From a virus, in the IMG/VR virus record IMGVR_UViG_3300027704_000200, positions 1 to 21,133 of that record: a stretch of DNA of 21,133 bases; one strand, given 5' to 3'. This document shows, in pieces, positions 3,945-15,365 of the stretch; positions within the stretch are counted from its first letter, which is position 1, and every line of letters starts with the position of its first letter. Position numbers and translations under genes: made by a program. Under the pieces are notes generated by a model that was not told the DNA's origin, ran no database searches, and worked only from the letters and a program-made list of their open reading frames with translations.

Positions 3945-5483
3945 ATGAATCAAATAGTAAAAGAATTTAGCTTCGGAAGCGAGGGTAAAGATAAAGTATT
4001 TAAAGGTATTGAAAAATTAACAAAAGCCGTAGCTTCCACTTTAGGAGCTGGCGGTGATTGTGTTATATTTGAAGATGCGCAGGGAATACCGGTTATAACA
4101 AAAGACGGTGTTACTGTGGCGGAATTATCAGTGCTATTAGATCCTGTAGAAAACATGGGAGCTTCATTGGTTAAGCAAGCAGCAAGGAGAACAGTTGAAG
4201 AAGCAGGTGACGGAACAACAACGGCTACGGTATTAGCTTATGCAATACTAAAAGAGTTTAATGATTCCGAAATGAAGTTTACAAATCGCGAAATAAGAGA
4301 AGCTATAAATAACGTAACTGAAAAAACTTTAAACTACTTAGATAAATGCAGTAAACCAGTTGTTGGTAAAATGATTGACGAAGTTGCAACTATATCTACA
4401 AATAGTGATTTAGAATTAGGTGAGTTAATTGCAGACGCTTATAGAGCTGTAGATTTAACCGGGGTTGTTATGATGGAAACATCACAGGATGGCGAAACAA
4501 ACATAGAGATTGTTGAAGGAGTTCAGTATGAAAAAGGTTTTACTAACAATCACTTTGTAACTAACACGGCTAACAATACAGCTGAGTTAATTAATCCTAA
4601 GATATTGCTTGTAGATTCAGCGGTTGATAGTATCAGACAGATACAGACAATACTGGAGCACGTAATAAAAAATAACATACCTTTATTAATTGTAGGTGAT
4701 GTAGAGGCAAAAGTAGCTGCAGCATTAGCAATGAATAAAAACAAAGGGTCTATAAAGATAAATATAGTTCCAGCACCCACACATGGTGTAAATAGAAAAG
4801 AAATATTTGATGATTTGGCTTTATTAACAGGAGCTACGGTTATAAGTGAAAACTTAGGTGATGATTTAGATTTAATCGATCTATCTTGTTTAGGTACTTG
4901 TATAAAAGCTATATCAACGTTTAGAGATACCGTTTTTCAAATAGATGAAGAACAATCAGAAGAAATACAAGATATAATAACAACTATAAAAGGTGAGTTG
5001 CTTTGTGAATCAAATAGCGGCAAAGTAATTAAACTTGAAAAAAGACTAGCAATGTTAGCTGCAAAATTAGCGGTTGTAAAAGTTGGTGGTAATTCAGATG
5101 TTGAATTAAACGAAAAGAAAGATAGAGTAGAAGATGCAATATGCGCAACTAAAGCTGCTATTAAAGAAGGAGTGGTTGCTGGAGGTGGAATAGCCCTGGT
5201 TGCTGCAAGTAAAGAAATTAAAACCACTAATCCAGCAGAAGAAGTTGTATTAAAAGCTTTGTTATACCCTTGTGTAACTATATTAAGTAACGCAGGACTA
5301 CCATATCGGAACATTGACAAAAAAGATTTTGGTATTGATGTTAAAAACGGAAAAGAGGTTAATATGTTTAAAGCAGGAATTATAGATCCTGTATTGGTTA
5401 CAAAATCAGCTTTAAAGAACGCTGCGTCAGTTGCTTCGACAATATTGTCAACTAACTGTGTTATGTCTAACGTAAGAGGATAA
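3945..5483 (+). CDS. groEL: Phage-encoded chaperonin GroEL (Cpn60)
   Basis: A 512-residue group I chaperonin: an ATP-driven folding chamber, expected in the cytoplasm. ATP-site residues are intact: ITKDG (Asp54), AGDGTTT (Asp89), VVAGGG (410-415), and RVEDA with Asp397, equivalent to E. coli Asp398. The P-loop-like TLGPKG of host GroEL reads TLGAGG (32-37). The apical region runs from about 190 to 370. The conserved end GIIDP..VTKSALKNAASVAS is present. The protein stops at residue 512, without the C-terminal GGM repeats (E. coli has 548 residues). Several apical residues that bind substrate and GroES differ from the host type. groES starts one base after the stop. The 59-base AT-rich gap upstream (3886-3944) could hold a promoter, but I see no clear Bacteroidota -33/-7 match. 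Probable job: folding of capsid or other virion proteins. Confidence 0.95.
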   Translation: MNQIVKEFSFGSEGKDKVFKGIEKLTKAVASTLGAGGDCVIFEDAQGIPVITKDGVTVAELSVLLDPVENMGASLVKQAARRTVEEAGDGTTTATVLAYAILKEFNDSEMKFTNREIREAINNVTEKTLNYLDKCSKPVVGKMIDEVATISTNSDLELGELIADAYRAVDLTGVVMMETSQDGETNIEIVEGVQYEKGFTNNHFVTNTANNTAELINPKILLVDSAVDSIRQIQTILEHVIKNNIPLLIVGDVEAKVAAALAMNKNKGSIKINIVPAPTHGVNRKEIFDDLALLTGATVISENLGDDLDLIDLSCLGTCIKAISTFRDTVFQIDEEQSEEIQDIITTIKGELLCESNSGKVIKLEKRLAMLAAKLAVVKVGGNSDVELNEKKDRVEDAICATKAAIKEGVVAGGGIALVAASKEIKTTNPAEEVVLKALLYPCVTILSNAGLPYRNIDKKDFGIDVKNGKEVNMFKAGIIDPVLVTKSALKNAASVASTILSTNCVMSNVRG

Positions 5484-5484
5484 T

Positions 5485-5745
5485 ATGAAAGCAATAGGTA
5501 GAAACATAATAATAAACAAATTAAAAGAAGGTATCACTAAAACAAAAGGTGGTTTACTTCTTTCAGAAGCACATAGAGAAGATATAAGATATGTAGAAGC
5601 TACAGTTGTATCGACAGGATCTGAATGTGATGGAATAAATAAAGACGATGTAATCTATTACGATAGACACGCTGGTCACAAGATAGAGCTAGATAGAGAA
5701 ACGTATCACGTTATTAAAGCTCAAGATGTAGTCTTTGTTTTATGA
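5485..5745 (+). CDS. groES: Phage co-chaperonin GroES (Cpn10)
   Basis: An 86-residue protein of normal Cpn10 length, the lid of the GroEL chamber. The mobile-loop region lies at about 17-33 and contains KTKGGLLL, where the LLL at 24-26 corresponds to the hydrophobic IVL tripeptide that docks on GroEL. Later features fit the Cpn10 beta-barrel: KDDVIYYDRHAGHKIELD, and the C-terminal AQDVVFVL, which matches the usual EDILAVV ending. It starts one base after groEL and overlaps the next gene by 4 bases (ATGA), so the three are very likely co-translated. Phage Cpn10 proteins such as T4 gp31 serve major capsid folding; here the partner is probably the adjacent phage GroEL, but host GroEL is also possible. 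Confidence 0.9.
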   Translation: MKAIGRNIIINKLKEGITKTKGGLLLSEAHREDIRYVEATVVSTGSECDGINKDDVIYYDRHAGHKIELDRETYHVIKAQDVVFVL

Positions 5746-7011: not shown

Positions 7012-7134
7012 ATGGCAAAAGCATTTAAGGTACATAAAATGTACAAAGGTAAAATTACTAAGACAGCTAACACTATGGCTCAGCATAATGCTTTAAAAAA
7101 GCAAGGCTATAGCCACACTAAATCTAAAAAGTAA
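7012..7134 (+). CDS. Very small basic protein, 40 residues
   Basis: This reads MAKAFKVHKMYKGKITKTAN and then a His/Lys-rich tail ending HTKSKK. About a quarter of the residues are Lys. The start is 2 bases after the endolysin stop. Its TAA overlaps the ATG of the next gene (TAATG). The exact fit between two genes and the similar composition of its neighbours support it as real. It may bind nucleic acid; no known family is recognised. Confidence 0.7.
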   Translation: MAKAFKVHKMYKGKITKTANTMAQHNALKKQGYSHTKSKK

Positions 7135-7514
7135 TGGCCGCTCCAAAAAAACCAGTAAAGAAAAAAGCAACTCCTAAAAAGAAAGTTGTTGCTAAAAAGA
7201 AAGCGGCTCCTAAGAAAAAATCTACCAGAGCAGAAAAAAATGCTCCTTCGCGTAAAAAATCTAAAGGTAATTATGCTAAAGTAAAAAAAGGCAAAGGTAC
7301 TGGTAAAAAAGCAGGTGGAGGAATGACAGCTAAAGGTGTTGCAACCTATCGCAAAAATAATCCAGGCAGTAAATTAAAAACAGCGGTTACTAAGCCACCA
7401 TCACAATTAAAGCCCGGAAGTAAACCAGCTAAAAGACGTAAAGCATTTTGTGCTAGATCCAAAAGCTGGAAATCAGAAAGAGGATTGGCTGCACGAAGAA
7501 AATGGAACTGTTAA
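7134..7514 (+). CDS. Lys-rich histone-H1-like protein, DUF6321-like C-terminus
   Basis: A 126-residue, extremely basic protein. Residues 1-60 are Lys/Ala/Pro repeats (PKKPVKKKATPKKK...) like histone H1 tails. Residues about 63-126 contain GGGMTAKGVATYRKNNPGSK, a KPPSQLKPGSKPAKRRKAFCAR block, and a final RKWNC. I recognise this from cyanophage and other marine phage proteins, and believe it is DUF6321. The usual insert before the final motif is short here. Probable role: binding or compacting DNA, perhaps inside the capsid, inferred from charge. Its start overlaps the upstream stop (TAATG). Confidence 0.75.
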   Translation: MAAPKKPVKKKATPKKKVVAKKKAAPKKKSTRAEKNAPSRKKSKGNYAKVKKGKGTGKKAGGGMTAKGVATYRKNNPGSKLKTAVTKPPSQLKPGSKPAKRRKAFCARSKSWKSERGLAARRKWNC

Positions 7515-7772: not shown

Positions 7773-8017
7773 TGGCTGTTCGTAAAACAAAAAAAGGCGC
7801 TTCATTAAGAAGATGGTTTAAAGAAAAGTGGACAGACGAAAAGGGTAACGAGTGTGGATCTACTAAAAACAAAAACACTAAAAAGTGTAGGCCCTCTAAA
7901 AGAATAAGTAAAAACACTCCTAAAATATGGAGCGAAATGTCTCCAGAGCAAAAAAGAAAAGCTGTAGCGGAAAAGAAAAGAACTGGTATGGGTAAAAGAA
8001 CTTCAAGAATTACATAA
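7772..8017 (+). CDS. Small basic protein, SLRxWFKEKW family
   Basis: An 81-residue protein. SLRRWFKEKWTDEKGNECGS near the N-terminus, KKCRPSKRISKNTP in the middle and MSPEQKRKAVAEKKRTG at the end match a pattern seen in small basic marine phage proteins that often sit beside the SAYASGA type. Two Cys (ECG, KKC) may form a metal site or a disulfide. The ATG overlaps the upstream stop. The stop lies inside the hexamer-repeat leader of the next gene. Confidence 0.75.
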   Translation: MAVRKTKKGASLRRWFKEKWTDEKGNECGSTKNKNTKKCRPSKRISKNTPKIWSEMSPEQKRKAVAEKKRTGMGKRTSRIT

Positions 8018-8040
8018 ACATAAACATAAACACAAACACA
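8013..8040 (+). promoter_or_regulatory. Hexamer-periodic A/C-rich leader before 8041 gene
   Basis: C residues recur every 6 bases at 8013, 8019, 8025, 8031 and 8037 in a background of A and T (CATAAA three times, then CACAAA CACA). The last is 4 bases before the ATG. No SD is present. A second leader with the same phase lies before the gene at 8611. It is probably an unstructured translation-enhancing leader; that role is inferred. Confidence 0.5.
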
Positions 8041-8544
8041 ATGGAAAGTAACAAACAAAGAGCAAAGAACGACTTAAGCATGAATCCTATAGCTGACAAA
8101 TCAGCTGCAAAAATGATAAACATTAAAGGAGCTTCACAACCATTTTCAATGCAAATGGCAAAGACAAAAGAAACATTGCCTATGAAAAGCTATGCACCAT
8201 TAGCTAATAAGCAAGGTTATAATTCAAGACTTGATGAATCATTAGGTGAAAGAAACGGAAATAAATCTCAATCTATGAAAGCTCGTAGAGATGAGTCTAA
8301 AGGCGAGAAAACAAGTACGGGTGATCCAGCTTACTCGGCAAACAAAAATTCATCACCAGCAGGAATGATGAAAGACAAATCGGTTATATTTAATAAATCG
8401 GAATCACCTTTTATGAAATCAGAACAAAAAGTAGAGCAAGACTATGCTAGAAATGCTATTGCTGATTATAAAGCTGGTGATAAGAAAGCCGGTAATTACG
8501 AAAAAAAGAAAGCGCTAGAAACAGCTGCTGGAGAAGGTAAATAA
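8041..8544 (+). CDS. Polar, probably disordered protein
   Basis: A 167-residue protein rich in Lys, Ser, Asn, Met and Ala with few hydrophobic residues, so probably disordered. SRLDESLGERNGNKSQSMKA near residues 61-80 and a following RRDESKGEK resemble low-complexity DES-rich segments in other marine phage proteins. The C-terminal 40 residues look helical (VEQDYARNAIADYKAGDKK). It has a hexamer-repeat leader in front, which suggests strong translation. Candidate scaffold or internal virion protein, but there is no direct evidence. Confidence 0.65.
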   Translation: MESNKQRAKNDLSMNPIADKSAAKMINIKGASQPFSMQMAKTKETLPMKSYAPLANKQGYNSRLDESLGERNGNKSQSMKARRDESKGEKTSTGDPAYSANKNSSPAGMMKDKSVIFNKSESPFMKSEQKVEQDYARNAIADYKAGDKKAGNYEKKKALETAAGEGK

Positions 8545-8576
8545 TAACAGAATAGGACTGTATAAACCTAGCCTAA

Positions 8577-8610
8577 CATAAACATAAACAATAACAAAAA
8601 CAAAAACAAA
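8577..8610 (+). promoter_or_regulatory. Hexamer-periodic A/C-rich leader before 8611 gene
   Basis: C residues sit exactly every 6 bases at 8577, 8583, 8589, 8595, 8601 and 8607, all other bases being A or T. The last C is 4 bases before the ATG, the same phase as at 8013-8040. The 5' part repeats CATAAA; the 3' part is CAAAAA. The region 8545-8576 upstream could carry a promoter but shows no motif I can assign. Confidence 0.55.
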
Positions 8611-8997
8611 ATGGCAAAATTCATTAAATTTAACGTAGTAAATTCAGGGGCTGCTTCGCCACTTGGACCAAGAGAATCAATTCTTGTAAACATTGAAGAC
8701 ATTACAACAGTAGCTGCAACTGGAGCAACTGGAGCAAATGCTAAAACAGTAGTAGTTGGTTTAACAGGTAGAGCTGCACAAGCTGCGGGTTACCGAACAT
8801 TAACTTTAACGGTTTCAACTAGTATTTCTGCTGCAGTAAATCCAACTATAGCAAGTGGAGTGGCAAATCCTTTAGTTACTGCGGTAAGATCTGCAATGAC
8901 AGCTAATCCAGGGGGAGTAACTGCTTCTGCTCAATTAGGGGTAGATCAAGCAGCAACACCTGCTCAAATGTATTTTAGAACAGCAGCATTCGCTTAA
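8611..8997 (+). CDS. Small Ala/Thr-rich putative structural protein
   Basis: A 128-residue protein, rich in Ala, Thr, Val and Gly, with no charged clusters. It starts MAKFIKFNVVNSG and includes an AVRSAMTANPGGVTASAQL stretch. I have seen similar short proteins with an ...ALTANPGG... segment in Bacteroidota phages, where they lack an assigned function. It has its own leader (8577-8610) and a strong terminator just downstream (9012-9045). This arrangement suggests a short, highly expressed transcription unit, as expected of a decoration or other abundant virion protein. That role is inferred. Confidence 0.7.
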   Translation: MAKFIKFNVVNSGAASPLGPRESILVNIEDITTVAATGATGANAKTVVVGLTGRAAQAAGYRTLTLTVSTSISAAVNPTIASGVANPLVTAVRSAMTANPGGVTASAQLGVDQAATPAQMYFRTAAFA

Positions 8998-9011
8998 TAG
9001 CAATTAAATAG

Positions 9012-9045
9012 TCTTGCGAGGTTTAATTATCTCGCAGGATTTTTT
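9012..9045 (+). terminator. Rho-independent terminator after 8611 gene
   Basis: Left arm 9012-9020 (TCTTGCGAG) pairs with right arm 9031-9039 (CTCGCAGGA) over 9 base pairs with one G-T wobble. The loop is 10 bases, and T6 follows at 9040-9045. The next gene's ATG is at 9049, so the hairpin also sits in that gene's start region. Confidence 0.9.
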
Positions 9046-10178: not shown

Positions 10179-12161
10179 ATGGCTTTACCAAATATGGCAA
10201 TGATTCCAAGTGGATATAAGCCTACTAAATTATATAGTGTACTTCCAACACCTGCTGTGAGTGATGTGGAATTGATTGCAAATGGAGACTTTGCAACAAA
10301 CAGTAATTGGACTAAAGACACAGGATGGAGTATTTCGGGAGGTTCTTTAAATTACAATGGTCCAGCTTCAAGTACCAGTAATTCAAGGCAGCTTATTTCA
10401 AGTTACTCATTGTCTAAATTATACGAAGTAACTTACACTATATCAGTAGTAAGTGGAGGTGCTTATGTAAGTTTAGGTTATGGACCCCTTACTACAAGAA
10501 CAGTAAGTGGAACATATACGGAGCAAGGTTACTTTAATGATAGTGGTACCTTTAATGGGTATCTTAGAATATATTCATCAGGAGCATCTGAGTTCTCAAT
10601 AAGCAATATATCAGTTAAAGAATTTACAGTTTTAGACGCTGATTTCACAGTAACAAGAGCAACACCAGCAACACGAGTTAATCAACAAGGTTTAATAGAA
10701 ACACCCAACTTTATTGAAAGTGGAGAATTGGTTACTAATGGAGATTTTTCAAATGGTTCAGTAGGATGGAGTGTAGGTTCCCAATGGACTGTTGCTAATG
10801 GAGCTGCTTCTTTAGTTGGAGATGGCAATAACAATACTCTCGGATACCCACTTACACTTATTCAATTTAGAACTTACAAAGTTACTTTTGATGTTTTAGC
10901 TATTAGTGGAAGAGGTAAGATTCAAATGCAAAGTGCCATTTCTAATGAATATAGCACTACTGGTTCTAAGGTATTTTATGTTTATATGGCTAACAATCCT
11001 TTTCCAAATGCTGATTTTTCAAGGAGGACTGGTGTTGTGTCAATGACAATAACTAACATATCAATAGTAGAAGTAGAAACAGAGGATATCCCAAGATTAG
11101 ACTATACAGATGGAACGTGTCCAGTTCTTTTGACAGAACCGCAGTCAACAAATTTTATACCTTATTCAAATGGTTTAAATCAGGGCTTTTTTACTAAAGC
11201 AAATACAACAATAACTCCAAACCAAGATATTGCACCAAGCGGATTAAATGAAGCGTGGTTAGTGTCTGCAGTTGGCTCAAGTCCAAGAATTTCTTCAAAC
11301 GGGGCTTTTGGGTCGGGTAATTTTTCTTTAAGTTGGTTTGTCAAAAAGAAAACATCAAGTTATTTTAAACTTAGACTATACAATGGGGCTACAAATCACG
11401 ATGCGATTTTTGATTTAGAAAATGGAACTTTAACAAGTGGGAATGGAAGCATTAAATCTTATGTAAATGGTTGGTATAGATGCACGTTGAATTACGACAC
11501 GACTGCCGCTCACTCCGCACAAGCATACGTGAGTGATACAAGCACGGGAAGCATATATATGTGGGGCAATCAAATAGAGCCTTTACCTTATAGTACTTCA
11601 ATAATTCCCACCTCTGGAATTGCAGCTACTCGTAATAAAGATATAGTAAATAATGCTGGTACATCTGCTACTTATAATTCAACAGAGGGAGTTTTATTTG
11701 TAGAGATGGCAACCTTTGCTGATGACGATAATTCTTTTAGATTCATAAGTTTAAATGATGGTACGCCAAACAATGCAGTCAAATTTGTATTTCACTTTAA
11801 TACTGTATATGCAGAAACCGTTGTAGGAGGTGTTAATCAAGGAACTACGTCTTACGTGTTCCCTTCTATTACAAGTAAAAACAAAATAGCTTTTAAGTAC
11901 AAGGAAAATAATTTCAGTTTTTGGGTTAATGGTGCTGAGGTTGGTACTGATTTAGTGGGTAGCGTTTTAGCTGCAAACACATTAAACAATTTGTCATTTG
12001 ATAGAGGAGATTCAGCCTCTCCTTTCTATGGTAAAACATCACAAGTACAAGTATTCAACACTGCATTATCTGATTTTGATTTACAAAACCTTACAAGTAA
12101 TGCAACTGCTTATGCAACTTATGAAACAATGAGAACTTCATTAAACTTTAATATACAATAA
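10179..12161 (+). CDS. Phage spike protein 1 with CBM-like and LamG-like regions
   Basis: A 660-residue protein. Regions in order: two carbohydrate-binding-like jelly-roll regions, each opening with NGDF...W (about 32-148 and 185-297), with a FTVTRATPATRVNQQGLIE linker near 155 between them; a head-spike-fibre-type region starting at LLTEPQSTNFIPYS (about 300-490), ending in IYMWGNQIEP..YSTSIIPTSG; and a C-terminal LamG/concanavalin-like domain (about 495-650) with KIAFKYKENNFSFWVNGAEV and VQVFNTALSD. Role: binding of surface glycans during adsorption, inferred from domains. It has two CBM-like regions where its paralogs have one. Confidence 0.8.
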   Translation: MALPNMAMIPSGYKPTKLYSVLPTPAVSDVELIANGDFATNSNWTKDTGWSISGGSLNYNGPASSTSNSRQLISSYSLSKLYEVTYTISVVSGGAYVSLGYGPLTTRTVSGTYTEQGYFNDSGTFNGYLRIYSSGASEFSISNISVKEFTVLDADFTVTRATPATRVNQQGLIETPNFIESGELVTNGDFSNGSVGWSVGSQWTVANGAASLVGDGNNNTLGYPLTLIQFRTYKVTFDVLAISGRGKIQMQSAISNEYSTTGSKVFYVYMANNPFPNADFSRRTGVVSMTITNISIVEVETEDIPRLDYTDGTCPVLLTEPQSTNFIPYSNGLNQGFFTKANTTITPNQDIAPSGLNEAWLVSAVGSSPRISSNGAFGSGNFSLSWFVKKKTSSYFKLRLYNGATNHDAIFDLENGTLTSGNGSIKSYVNGWYRCTLNYDTTAAHSAQAYVSDTSTGSIYMWGNQIEPLPYSTSIIPTSGIAATRNKDIVNNAGTSATYNSTEGVLFVEMATFADDDNSFRFISLNDGTPNNAVKFVFHFNTVYAETVVGGVNQGTTSYVFPSITSKNKIAFKYKENNFSFWVNGAEVGTDLVGSVLAANTLNNLSFDRGDSASPFYGKTSQVQVFNTALSDFDLQNLTSNATAYATYETMRTSLNFNIQ

Positions 12162-12163
12162 AT

Positions 12164-13750
12164 ATGGCTAATACATTAAGCTTAGGGAGTGGTAATTGGG
12201 GAGCAAAAGAGTCTTTATTACTTGGGTATTATGAAAATGGAGGAAAGTTCTTTCCCGAAACATTTGATGTTACAAGAGCAACTAGTGGAACAAGGGTTAA
12301 TAAAGCGGGATTGATTGAAACACCTACAGAGATACTTAGTGGTGATTTAGTTATAAATGGGGATTTTGATACAGATTCAGATTGGATTTTGGATAGTGGT
12401 TGGAGTATATCAAGCGGAAAAGCAAGTTGTAATGGAATTACAGGGTACATTACAGAGGCAAACGCAACTTTATCAGCAGGGAAGAGTTATAAAATGACCT
12501 ATACAGTAACTGATTACACGAGCGGCTCAGTAAGAATAAGGTGTGGAGGTACAAGCGGAACTTTTAGAACAAGCGTTGGAACCTATACAGAAGTTCTACT
12601 TTATTCGGGTAGCACTTTTAAAACAAATCTTTACTCCAGCTCATTCATTGGCTCAATAGACAACGTATCTGTAATAGAAGTAAACCAAGACAACCTTGCT
12701 CGTATAGATTACTTAGATGATGCTAAAGGTGCTTTATTGACAGAGCCGCAGTCGACAAACCTAATACCTTATAGCGAGGACTTTAGTAATGGTAGTTGGA
12801 ATAAACAGTCAGGGATAATACCTACTTATAACACAACCGAAACTTTAAGTCCAGATGGAACTTATAATGCAACTAAATTTGTAGGTAATGGTACTACTGG
12901 AGTTTTCAAATCAGGTGTTAGTGTATCAGGAAATATATCAAGGTCTGTTTATTTAAAAAGTGTATCAGGTAATACAACTGCTATATTTAAAGACCCAAAC
13001 GCTGAAGGTGGCGCAACTCCTGTAAATTTAACAATAACTAATGAATGGCAAAGATTTGAATTAATAGGAGATAACGGTACTTCTGCTCAGGGATTATGGA
13101 TAGATGATATTACGTCAGATGGATTATATATGTGGGGCGCTCAATTAGAAGGAGAAAACGCAGTAGGTTATAACGGAGAGTATGCTACTTCGTATATTCC
13201 AACCTTTAACGGAATCGTTTCTCGTAATAAAGATGAGGTTACTAACGGAGGGGATGTAAATAGTTTTGGTTCTGAAGGGGTTTTATATGCAGAAATAGCA
13301 GCGTTAGCTAATGATGGTACTTATAGAATATTTTCTATAAATGATGGAAGCAGAAATAATAGGGTTTACCTACAATACATTGATACAAGTAATACCCTCG
13401 GTGCAGTTGTAAAAAGTTCAAATACTACTCAAGCTAATATGACATTTGTTTTAGCTGATGAAACAAATTTTGTAAAAGTAGGATTTAAGTACAAGGCTAA
13501 TGATTTTGCTTTGTGGGTTAATGGTGTAGAGGTAGCAACTGATACAAGTGGATTATCTCCAATAGGTTTAAATAATTTAGCTTTTAATGATGGAGAATCA
13601 AATGATTTCTTTGGAAAAACTAAAAACATCCAAGCATTCAACACCGCTTTATCAGATTCAGATTTATTATCTTTAACAACAACTGGTTCGGTTCCATATT
13701 GGACACAATATAGTGCAATGGCAACAACACTTAATTATACAAATAAATAA
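12164..13750 (+). CDS. Phage spike protein 2, paralog
   Basis: A 528-residue paralog of the preceding gene. It begins MANTLSLGSGNWGAKESLLL, then FDVTRATSGTRVNKAGLIET, one CBM-like region from VINGDFDTDSDW, an ARIDYLDDAKGALLTEPQST block, a central region ending LYMWGAQLEG, and a C-terminal LamG-like domain with VGFKYKANDFALWVNGVEVA and IQAFNTALSD. It starts 2 bases after the first spike. Nucleotide identity to spike 3 is high in patches (for example 12650-12666). Role as for the first spike: host-surface binding. Confidence 0.8.
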   Translation: MANTLSLGSGNWGAKESLLLGYYENGGKFFPETFDVTRATSGTRVNKAGLIETPTEILSGDLVINGDFDTDSDWILDSGWSISSGKASCNGITGYITEANATLSAGKSYKMTYTVTDYTSGSVRIRCGGTSGTFRTSVGTYTEVLLYSGSTFKTNLYSSSFIGSIDNVSVIEVNQDNLARIDYLDDAKGALLTEPQSTNLIPYSEDFSNGSWNKQSGIIPTYNTTETLSPDGTYNATKFVGNGTTGVFKSGVSVSGNISRSVYLKSVSGNTTAIFKDPNAEGGATPVNLTITNEWQRFELIGDNGTSAQGLWIDDITSDGLYMWGAQLEGENAVGYNGEYATSYIPTFNGIVSRNKDEVTNGGDVNSFGSEGVLYAEIAALANDGTYRIFSINDGSRNNRVYLQYIDTSNTLGAVVKSSNTTQANMTFVLADETNFVKVGFKYKANDFALWVNGVEVATDTSGLSPIGLNNLAFNDGESNDFFGKTKNIQAFNTALSDSDLLSLTTTGSVPYWTQYSAMATTLNYTNK

Positions 13751-13751
13751 T

Positions 13752-15365
13752 ATGAGTAAAGCAAGTTTAATAGTAGGTAATAGTAATTGGGCAATAAAAG
13801 ATTCTTCTTTACTTGGTTACAATATAAATGATTCTAATATATATTCTCCATTTCCTTTTGATGTTACAAGAGCAACTCCAGCTACAACAGTTAACAAAGC
13901 TGGGTTGATAGTAACGGATGAAGAAATACTTAGTGGTGATTTGGTTACAAATGGCTCTTTTGCCACAGATAGTGATTGGGCATTTATTGGAACAACAGAA
14001 ATAAGCAATGGGGTTGCAAGTTTTCCAAATAGTACAAATAGTTTTTTAATACAATCTAATGTTTTTGATTTATCAGTTAAAACATATAAACTACAATATA
14101 AAGTTGTAACAACAAATGGAAATAATTTTAGACTTGCGGGTGGTAATTCTGCTTTTGATAGTTTAAATTTAGATAGTGCTACAATAGGATTTAAAACGGT
14201 TTATATAACAAGTAATGGCACTAAGCAAAACTTACAATTTAATAATAATACTTTCATAGGCTCAATAGACAACGTTTCAGTAGTAGAAGTAAACCGAAAC
14301 AACCTTGCTCGTATAGACTATTTAGATAGTACTGATGGAGTTCTTTTAACAGAGCCTCAGTCAACTAACTTGTACGTGCAGTCATCATCATTTGTAGGTA
14401 ATTGGCAAGCAAGTAATTTAAACTTAACTTTATCTTCTGTATTATCTCCTAATGGTATTGATTATGCTACTAAAGTAGAGCAAACTTCAATTTATGGTAA
14501 TTATTATAGGGTAAAAACAGTTGTAAGTGGAAGCGATTATACACACTCTATATTTGCAAAAAAAGGAAATACAGATTGGATTTATTTAAGACCCGTTGAT
14601 TTTGACGTAAGTGCTGACAATAAAGTTTGGTTTGATTTAAATAATGGGGTAGTAGGAACAGATTCAGCTGGAGTAGGTAGTATAAAAGATTATGGTAATG
14701 GATGGTACAGATGCTCTATTAAATTTAATACTACAACAGATTTAACTGGTAGAGTTCTTGGATATAATTGTAACAGTGATGGAGATTCTGTTGGTTCAGT
14801 AGGTCTAACTTCTTACATTTGGGGCGCTCAATTAGAACAAAAATCATATAGCACTTCAATAATCCCCACCTCTGGTTCAACAGTTACAAGAAACCAAGAC
14901 TTAGTTAATAATGGCGGAGAGGTAAGTACATTTAATAGTGAAGAGGGTGTATTATTTGTAGAGATAGCAGCGTTGGCTAATAGTGGAAATACTCGAATGA
15001 TAAATATTTCAGATGGAACGACTCTTAACAGAGTGGAAATAAGTTATTCATCAAGTGACAATTTGATTAGGGTTGTTTTTACTATAGGTGGAGTTTCAAC
15101 CGCATTTAACGCGTCTATCGCTGCAAATGTTTTTAACTTTAATAAAATAGCTTTTAGGTATAAAGAAAATGATTTTAAGGCGTATTTAAATGGAATAAAT
15201 GTTTTCACACAAACAAGTGGCGCAACTTTCCCATTAAATACACTTAATAGAGTTGATTTTGGCATACCATCAGTAGGTTTTAATTTCTTCGGTAAAACTA
15301 AAAACATCCAAGTATTTAAAAAAGCATTAACAGATGCAGAACTAATAAAATTAACAACTATATAA
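13752..15365 (+). CDS. Phage spike protein 3, paralog
   Basis: A 537-residue paralog. I choose ATG 13752 (MSKASLIVGNSNWAIKDSSL), which aligns with the start of spike 2. An in-frame ATG at 13713 lies inside the previous gene and adds 13 unrelated residues. Layout: FDVTRATPATTVNKAGLI, one CBM-like region (VTNGSFATDSDW), ARIDYLDSTDGVLLTEPQST, a head-spike region ending IWGAQLEQKSYSTSIIPTSG, and a LamG-like C-terminus with IAFRYKENDFKAYLNGINV and IQVFKKALTD. It shares blocks with both neighbours, so it looks like a mosaic. Confidence 0.8.
   Translation: MSKASLIVGNSNWAIKDSSLLGYNINDSNIYSPFPFDVTRATPATTVNKAGLIVTDEEILSGDLVTNGSFATDSDWAFIGTTEISNGVASFPNSTNSFLIQSNVFDLSVKTYKLQYKVVTTNGNNFRLAGGNSAFDSLNLDSATIGFKTVYITSNGTKQNLQFNNNTFIGSIDNVSVVEVNRNNLARIDYLDSTDGVLLTEPQSTNLYVQSSSFVGNWQASNLNLTLSSVLSPNGIDYATKVEQTSIYGNYYRVKTVVSGSDYTHSIFAKKGNTDWIYLRPVDFDVSADNKVWFDLNNGVVGTDSAGVGSIKDYGNGWYRCSIKFNTTTDLTGRVLGYNCNSDGDSVGSVGLTSYIWGAQLEQKSYSTSIIPTSGSTVTRNQDLVNNGGEVSTFNSEEGVLFVEIAALANSGNTRMINISDGTTLNRVEISYSSSDNLIRVVFTIGGVSTAFNASIAANVFNFNKIAFRYKENDFKAYLNGINVFTQTSGATFPLNTLNRVDFGIPSVGFNFFGKTKNIQVFKKALTDAELIKLTTI

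Follow-up and report, generated by a model that had tools for sequence, protein, structure and literature searches.

Organization of the locus

The DNA analyzed here is a virus contig of 21,133 bases (IMGVR_UViG_3300027704_000200), referred to below as the window. Two neighboring genes, starting at 8041 and 8611, are each preceded by an A/T-rich stretch in which single C residues recur every six bases (Table 1). The preliminary description of this DNA had placed these residues at -4, -10, -16, -22 and -28 from the ATG of the gene at 8041 and at -4 through -34 from that of the gene at 8611. Both sets are borne out, with one additional C at -2 in front of the gene at 8041, and Tandem Repeats Finder calls both arrays as period 6. 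The two starts are also unique in the window, as had been stated: when both strands were scanned for five C positions in an A/T-rich context, only 8041, 8611 and 8605 were returned, the last being the 8611 array one unit earlier. What had been missed is a pseudoknot that caps the array of the gene at 8611, a member of a family here called MAKF.

Some other genes of the window were also noted. At 3945-5745 two chaperonin genes lie side by side, one for a GroEL-like protein of 512 aa and the other for a GroES-like protein of 86 aa, and phage MW202828 and the elemo phages are annotated with both chaperonins too. Three large neighboring proteins of about 530-660 aa (10179-15365) have VTRATP..VNKAGLIETP-like stretches in common and resemble one another in their C-terminal halves; they have the appearance of tail or receptor-binding proteins that have been duplicated.

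Table 1. Positions of the two arrays, the pseudoknot and the adjoining genes in the window
Feature	Position	Strand	Evidence or remark
Second array, in front of the gene at 8041, without pseudoknot	8011..8040	+	no conservation in relatives
167-aa gene behind the second array, function not assigned	8041..8544	+	
Stop codon of the upstream gene 8041-8544	8542..8544	+	pseudoknot begins 2 nt downstream
H-type pseudoknot	8547..8570	+	S1 by complementarity, S2 by covariation
Pseudoknot stem S1	ACAG 8547-8550 with CTGT 8558-8561	+	complementarity alone
Pseudoknot stem S2	TAGG 8553-8556 with CCTA 8567-8570	+	covariation
Pseudoknot loop L3	ATAAA 8562-8566	+	
G-free array of 6-nt period, AACANW units	8575..8610	+	C at -34 to -4; feature kept in orthologues
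MAKF-family gene, 128 aa, TANPGG motif, served by the leader	8611..8997	+	
Intrinsic-terminator-like hairpin after the MAKF gene	9010..9041	+	

The MAKF family and its link to the leader

A protein search with the product of the gene at 8611 found 80 viral loci, and in essentially all members of this set with upstream sequence a G-free, A/C-rich repeat stretch lies directly before the ATG. The virus collection was also scanned for five (CWHWAA) units without regard to the protein. Among the matches listed, most arrays ending no more than about 15 nt from an ATG precede small proteins that start with MAKF[IL], MAQFLKV, MAKYIKFN or MANYIKIK, while most of the remaining ones are in other places, such as within coding sequence of low complexity. 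An HMM made from these small proteins links them into one family, whose members are 92-154 aa long and invariably have NPGG close to the C-terminus. Since the period scan and the protein search converge, the leader and the MAKF family predict each other. Moreover, a second, alignment-based protein search, independent of the leader, returned many members with both pseudoknot and array.

In fact, MAKF is an unannotated gene family present in hundreds of environmental phage contigs. For its proteins, Pfam, PHROGs and PDB sequences gave no convincing match. The AF2 model of the 8611 product (pLDDT 85) gave no significant PDB match in a fold search, the weak hits being PH-like with a best Z of 4.7, and its matches in BFVD are unnamed or uncharacterized viral proteins. 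The MAKF gene has ordinary codon usage, which lends no independent support to high expression. In 36 of 139 loci, mostly those of close relatives, the gene has a terminator-like hairpin behind it; many others lack the hairpin.

Composition, period and phase of the array

The lack of G is the most constant property of the array. The 36-nt leader is G-free in 42 of 44 protein clusters, and at each of 30 leader positions G occurs in at most one of the 44. A is found at -3 in 43, at -6 in 34, at -12 in 34 and at -13 in 40 of these clusters. The leaders are also predicted to be hardly structured, with a mean unpaired probability of 0.92 for the MAKF leaders against 0.59 over the 224 start regions of the window and four near-complete relatives (54-70 kb). 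When these 224 regions are ranked by predicted single-strandedness, the five MAKF genes take the top five places and the gene at 8041 is seventh.

The periodicity seen in the window recurs in orthologous leaders, most of which have period 6, but not in a uniform way, for a period of 7 (ACAACAA) is found in L060 and L064-L077, spacing is irregular in L049 and L054, and the period is lost mid-array in L022 and its kin. In the 21 clusters found by protein search only, C-C pairs exceed a composition shuffle 2.9-fold at lag 6 and 2.3-fold at lag 12, while lag 5 stands at 0.25-fold, its depletion being 4-10 fold; 20 of these 21 leaders are G-free, and lag 6 is individually significant at 0.01 in 10 of them. 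The phase shared by the two arrays holds within the window but is not fixed among relatives. C positions relative to the ATG vary among orthologues (-4, -5, -6 and others), and among the 44 clusters, whose period is biased because the set includes leaders found by pattern, 14 have -4 mod 6 and 10 have 0 as their dominant phase, and each of the six phases occurs. These counts rule out a fixed phase to the ATG as a rule; phase is a preference.

The repeat units are CAAAAA, CACTAA, CATTAA, CACAAA, CATAAA and CAATAA, in which variation is found mostly at positions 3 and 4, and the C, the next A and the AA flank are mostly kept. The leader of L029 contains exactly one hexamer more than those of its close relatives (L023), a gain or loss that reveals tandem duplication as a force in shaping the array. 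The exact period probably matters less; with a C every six nucleotides, runs of A stay short and neither G nor start codons are introduced.

A conserved pseudoknot upstream of the array

Upstream of the array we found the consensus AACAG-N(1-4)-(U)AGG-A-CUGU-AnAAA-CCU(A). ACAG and CUGU form a stem, and a strand within its loop pairs with a strand beyond it, which is the topology of an H-type pseudoknot. The S2 strands change in concert, as UAGG/CCUA, GAGG/CCUC, UAGA/UCUA, GAGA/UCUC, AAGG/CCUU, CGAG/CUCG and GGG/CCC. When S2 partners were swapped among 27 distinct sequences, none of 2000 trials matched the observed complementarity (225 vs 144 +- 17), and in a column count both sides had changed in 28 cells where 12.8 were expected, a value that none of 500 shuffles reached. 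S1 is invariant and so is not open to covariation; its assignment comes from complementarity only. The pseudoknot spans 24 nt starting at -64 of the ATG and is followed by about 40 nt of G-free RNA that is predicted to be single-stranded. We looked by eye for the Bacteroidetes promoter (TAnnTTTG) in this conserved box and saw none; the box is the pseudoknot right after the upstream stop.

The stop codon of the upstream gene ends -2 to +12 nt from AACAG in 71 of 80 distinct loci. Among 66 distinct leaders found by protein, the pseudoknot motif is present in 50 and absent in 16. The MAKFISI subgroup is without it, and its G-free strip is about 45 nt long and more loosely spaced; in pseudoknot-less members the distance from the upstream stop to the ATG is mostly 41-47 nt and a similar strip is kept. 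As these members keep the strip, we regard it as the common part of the leader. In the window and its four near-complete relatives, the combination of pseudoknot and array occurs once per genome and always at the MAKF gene. A loose composition filter on the same five genomes returned otherwise only the start at 8041 and, in one relative (G002), two A/C-rich starts that are weaker and non-periodic.

Distribution and probable hosts

The terminase of the window has relatives in phages of known hosts, namely of Flavobacterium, Cellulophaga, Tenacibaculum and Maribacter, all of them Flavobacteriia, with a similarity of 44%. Judged solely by this similarity, the host is probably a flavobacterium, and the phages carrying the leader appear as a large group of uncultured marine phages with probably flavobacterial hosts. 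Isolated phages yielded no MAKF gene by tblastn with six diverse members, and no HMM-detectable MAKF gene was present in the 38-kb stretches of MW202828 and elemoA, the nearest annotated terminase relatives. A different affinity was seen in a lysine-rich small gene (7134-7514), where stretches of about 80-200 bases within 7307-7513 are 67-79% identical at the DNA level to Pelagibacter phages (HTVC010P, HTVC100P and others), in contrast to the terminase relatives that infect flavobacteria.

Among 395 Bacteroidota genomes, the array was matched in 4, against about a dozen for the reversed control pattern, and the MAKF family is practically absent, with one weak match. Since the array is no commoner there than its control and the family is nearly missing, the leader is a phage feature, and this comparison rules out a feature of host type. 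In a 257-Gb genome collection the pattern with phase -4 had 8 matches, none of them before a MAKF gene.

Interpretation of the leader

We regard the 8611 leader as a cis-acting element of the mRNA that has two parts and serves a single gene. Having no G, A at -3 and a place among the most single-stranded start regions, it fits an initiation region independent of Shine-Dalgarno (SD) pairing. The SD-independent translation enhancer or binding array proposed in the preliminary description is thus supported in part: this conserved leader suits SD-independent initiation and may enhance translation or bind a protein, but its pairing with the 8041 leader was misleading. Flavobacterium mRNAs lack Shine-Dalgarno sequences, and A at -3, -6, -12 and -13 together with low structure favors initiation in F. 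johnsoniae (PMC6847099). The MAKF leader resembles such A-rich, Kozak-like regions of Bacteroidetes in A at -3 and -12/-13, the missing SD and the low structure, but differs from them in its G-free length of about 40 nt, its tandem repeats and its conserved pseudoknot cap, and it is no feature of the sampled Bacteroidota genomes.

Our preferred explanation, to which we give an even chance, is that the leader loads ribosomes on one phage gene independently of SD pairing, with the pseudoknot as a 5' insulator or stabilizer. The A/C-rich strip would serve as a landing site for the 30S subunit without SD pairing, and its 40-45 nt from the 5' boundary, either pseudoknot or stop codon, to the AUG would be about a ribosome footprint. 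The pseudoknot may insulate the strip from upstream ribosomes and RNA, or may protect the mRNA from the 5' side; a polycistronic transcript could then yield the product of this one gene at a high rate. We favor this landing strip because a hardly foldable strip is common to members with and without the pseudoknot; raised translation, an abundant gene product and a flavobacterial host are what we infer. A plain landing strip alone does not explain the conserved pseudoknot and the strict period in many clades.

Much of the strict period may come from hexamer duplication, and the period as such may have no function, being a residue of hexamer duplication and loss in a leader kept for its lack of structure. 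The single extra hexamer of L029 speaks for this, as do the drifting phase and the occurrence of periods 6 and 7 and of irregular arrays at the same gene; but changes within the unit concentrate at positions 3 and 4, the hexamer grammar recurs in very divergent clades, and lag 5 is strongly depleted. We consider a functionless period quite conceivable, somewhat short of an even chance; it concerns the period and not the strip itself, and it is compatible with the landing-strip explanation.

The main rival is a cooperative protein-binding operator, because the layout is strikingly like that of T4 gene 32. There, a pseudoknot of about 28 nt lies about 67 nt upstream and is followed by an unstructured segment of more than 40 nt with UUAAA repeats up to the ribosome-binding site (PMC535899; PMC3014915). 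Like the gene 32 operators of T4, T2 and RB69, the MAKF leader has a short H-type pseudoknot about 65 nt upstream that abuts or overlaps the upstream gene, and beyond it an unstructured stretch of about 40 nt with repeats (here AACANW) that reaches the start codon; in each phage a single gene has this arrangement. A protein would nucleate on the pseudoknot and spread cooperatively over the 6-nt repeats until the start codon was covered, which would give repression or autorepression; the binder could be the MAKF product, another phage protein or a host RNA-binding protein. Bacteroides RbpB was considered as such a host binder, and nothing was found for or against it. A regular period would suit a lattice of monomers, and the unit tracks the protein clade, for example CACTAA with MAQFLK/MAKYIK and CATTAA with MANYIK, but this correlation may reflect shared ancestry. 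The repeats also differ from UUAAA/UAAA, there is no Shine-Dalgarno, the pseudoknot has another sequence, and, unlike gp32, the MAKF product with its weak PH-like matches is not recognizable as a single-strand binding protein. The leaders that lack the pseudoknot, and the arrays of period 7 or irregular spacing, likewise weigh against an operator, which we judge unlikely, yet far from negligible. By analogy we call the leader gene 32-like in layout, a likeness that implies no membership in that class, and the repression hypothetical.

Doubtful, and less probable again than the operator in general, is an independent second gene 32 design, in which an RNA lattice nucleated by the pseudoknot and paced by hexamers would be coated by a phage protein, possibly MAKF, that controls its own translation. 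If true, such a design would be common among uncultured marine phages whose hosts are probably flavobacteria. According to a 2010 review, the T4-type gene 32 pseudoknot is possibly the only viral one in translational autoregulation (PMC3014915), and the MAKF leader is a candidate for another. An element acting at the DNA level, such as an array for a transcription factor or a packaging or replication site that stands before the gene by chance, is very improbable. Tandem DNA repeats at one place per genome can indeed be binding sites, but the fixed orientation and position between upstream stop and ATG, the mRNA strand without G, the covarying stem and the A at -3 argue for RNA rather than DNA.

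The leader matches no covariance model of Rfam (release 15), and our literature search found nothing describing a leader of this type. Its parts are of known kinds; the combination is new in relation to Rfam and the literature searched. The omega leader of tobacco mosaic virus (TMV), a plant virus, is likewise a G-free A/C/U leader with short repeats before the start codon, but its units are different (CAA repeats), and to our knowledge it has no capping pseudoknot of the MAKF kind. The leader bears on an open question, namely how start codons are recognized by Bacteroidetes ribosomes in the absence of Shine-Dalgarno pairing. As it is compact, conserved in many phages and easily moved to a reporter, it could become both a test object and an expression tool.

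The array at 8041 and similar leaders

Only the 8611 leader is conserved, which rules out that the two periodic leaders form one system. In relatives, the genes at the place equivalent to 8041 have no such array, so the preliminary description's treatment of the two as a pair falls away; the array at 8041 is best regarded as a local and less strict instance. A/C-rich, periodic leaders that lack a pseudoknot, like that of the gene at 8041, also occur in some cases before other small genes lying immediately upstream of MAKF. Examples are found in L008 (4220), L010 (4257), L034-L043, L050 (3624) and L111, the gene being MNKYDKK in L008 and L034-L043. A perfect CAAAAA array occurs in L094 (1321-1350, minus strand) before a protein of 439 aa whose family is not assigned, without MAKF gene or pseudoknot. 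In the Flavobacterium phage elemoA_7-9A (L303, 23688-23722), an annotated virion structural protein gene is preceded by a G-free, A/C-rich but non-periodic leader, AACAAAAAACAAAACACACACAA-ATG.
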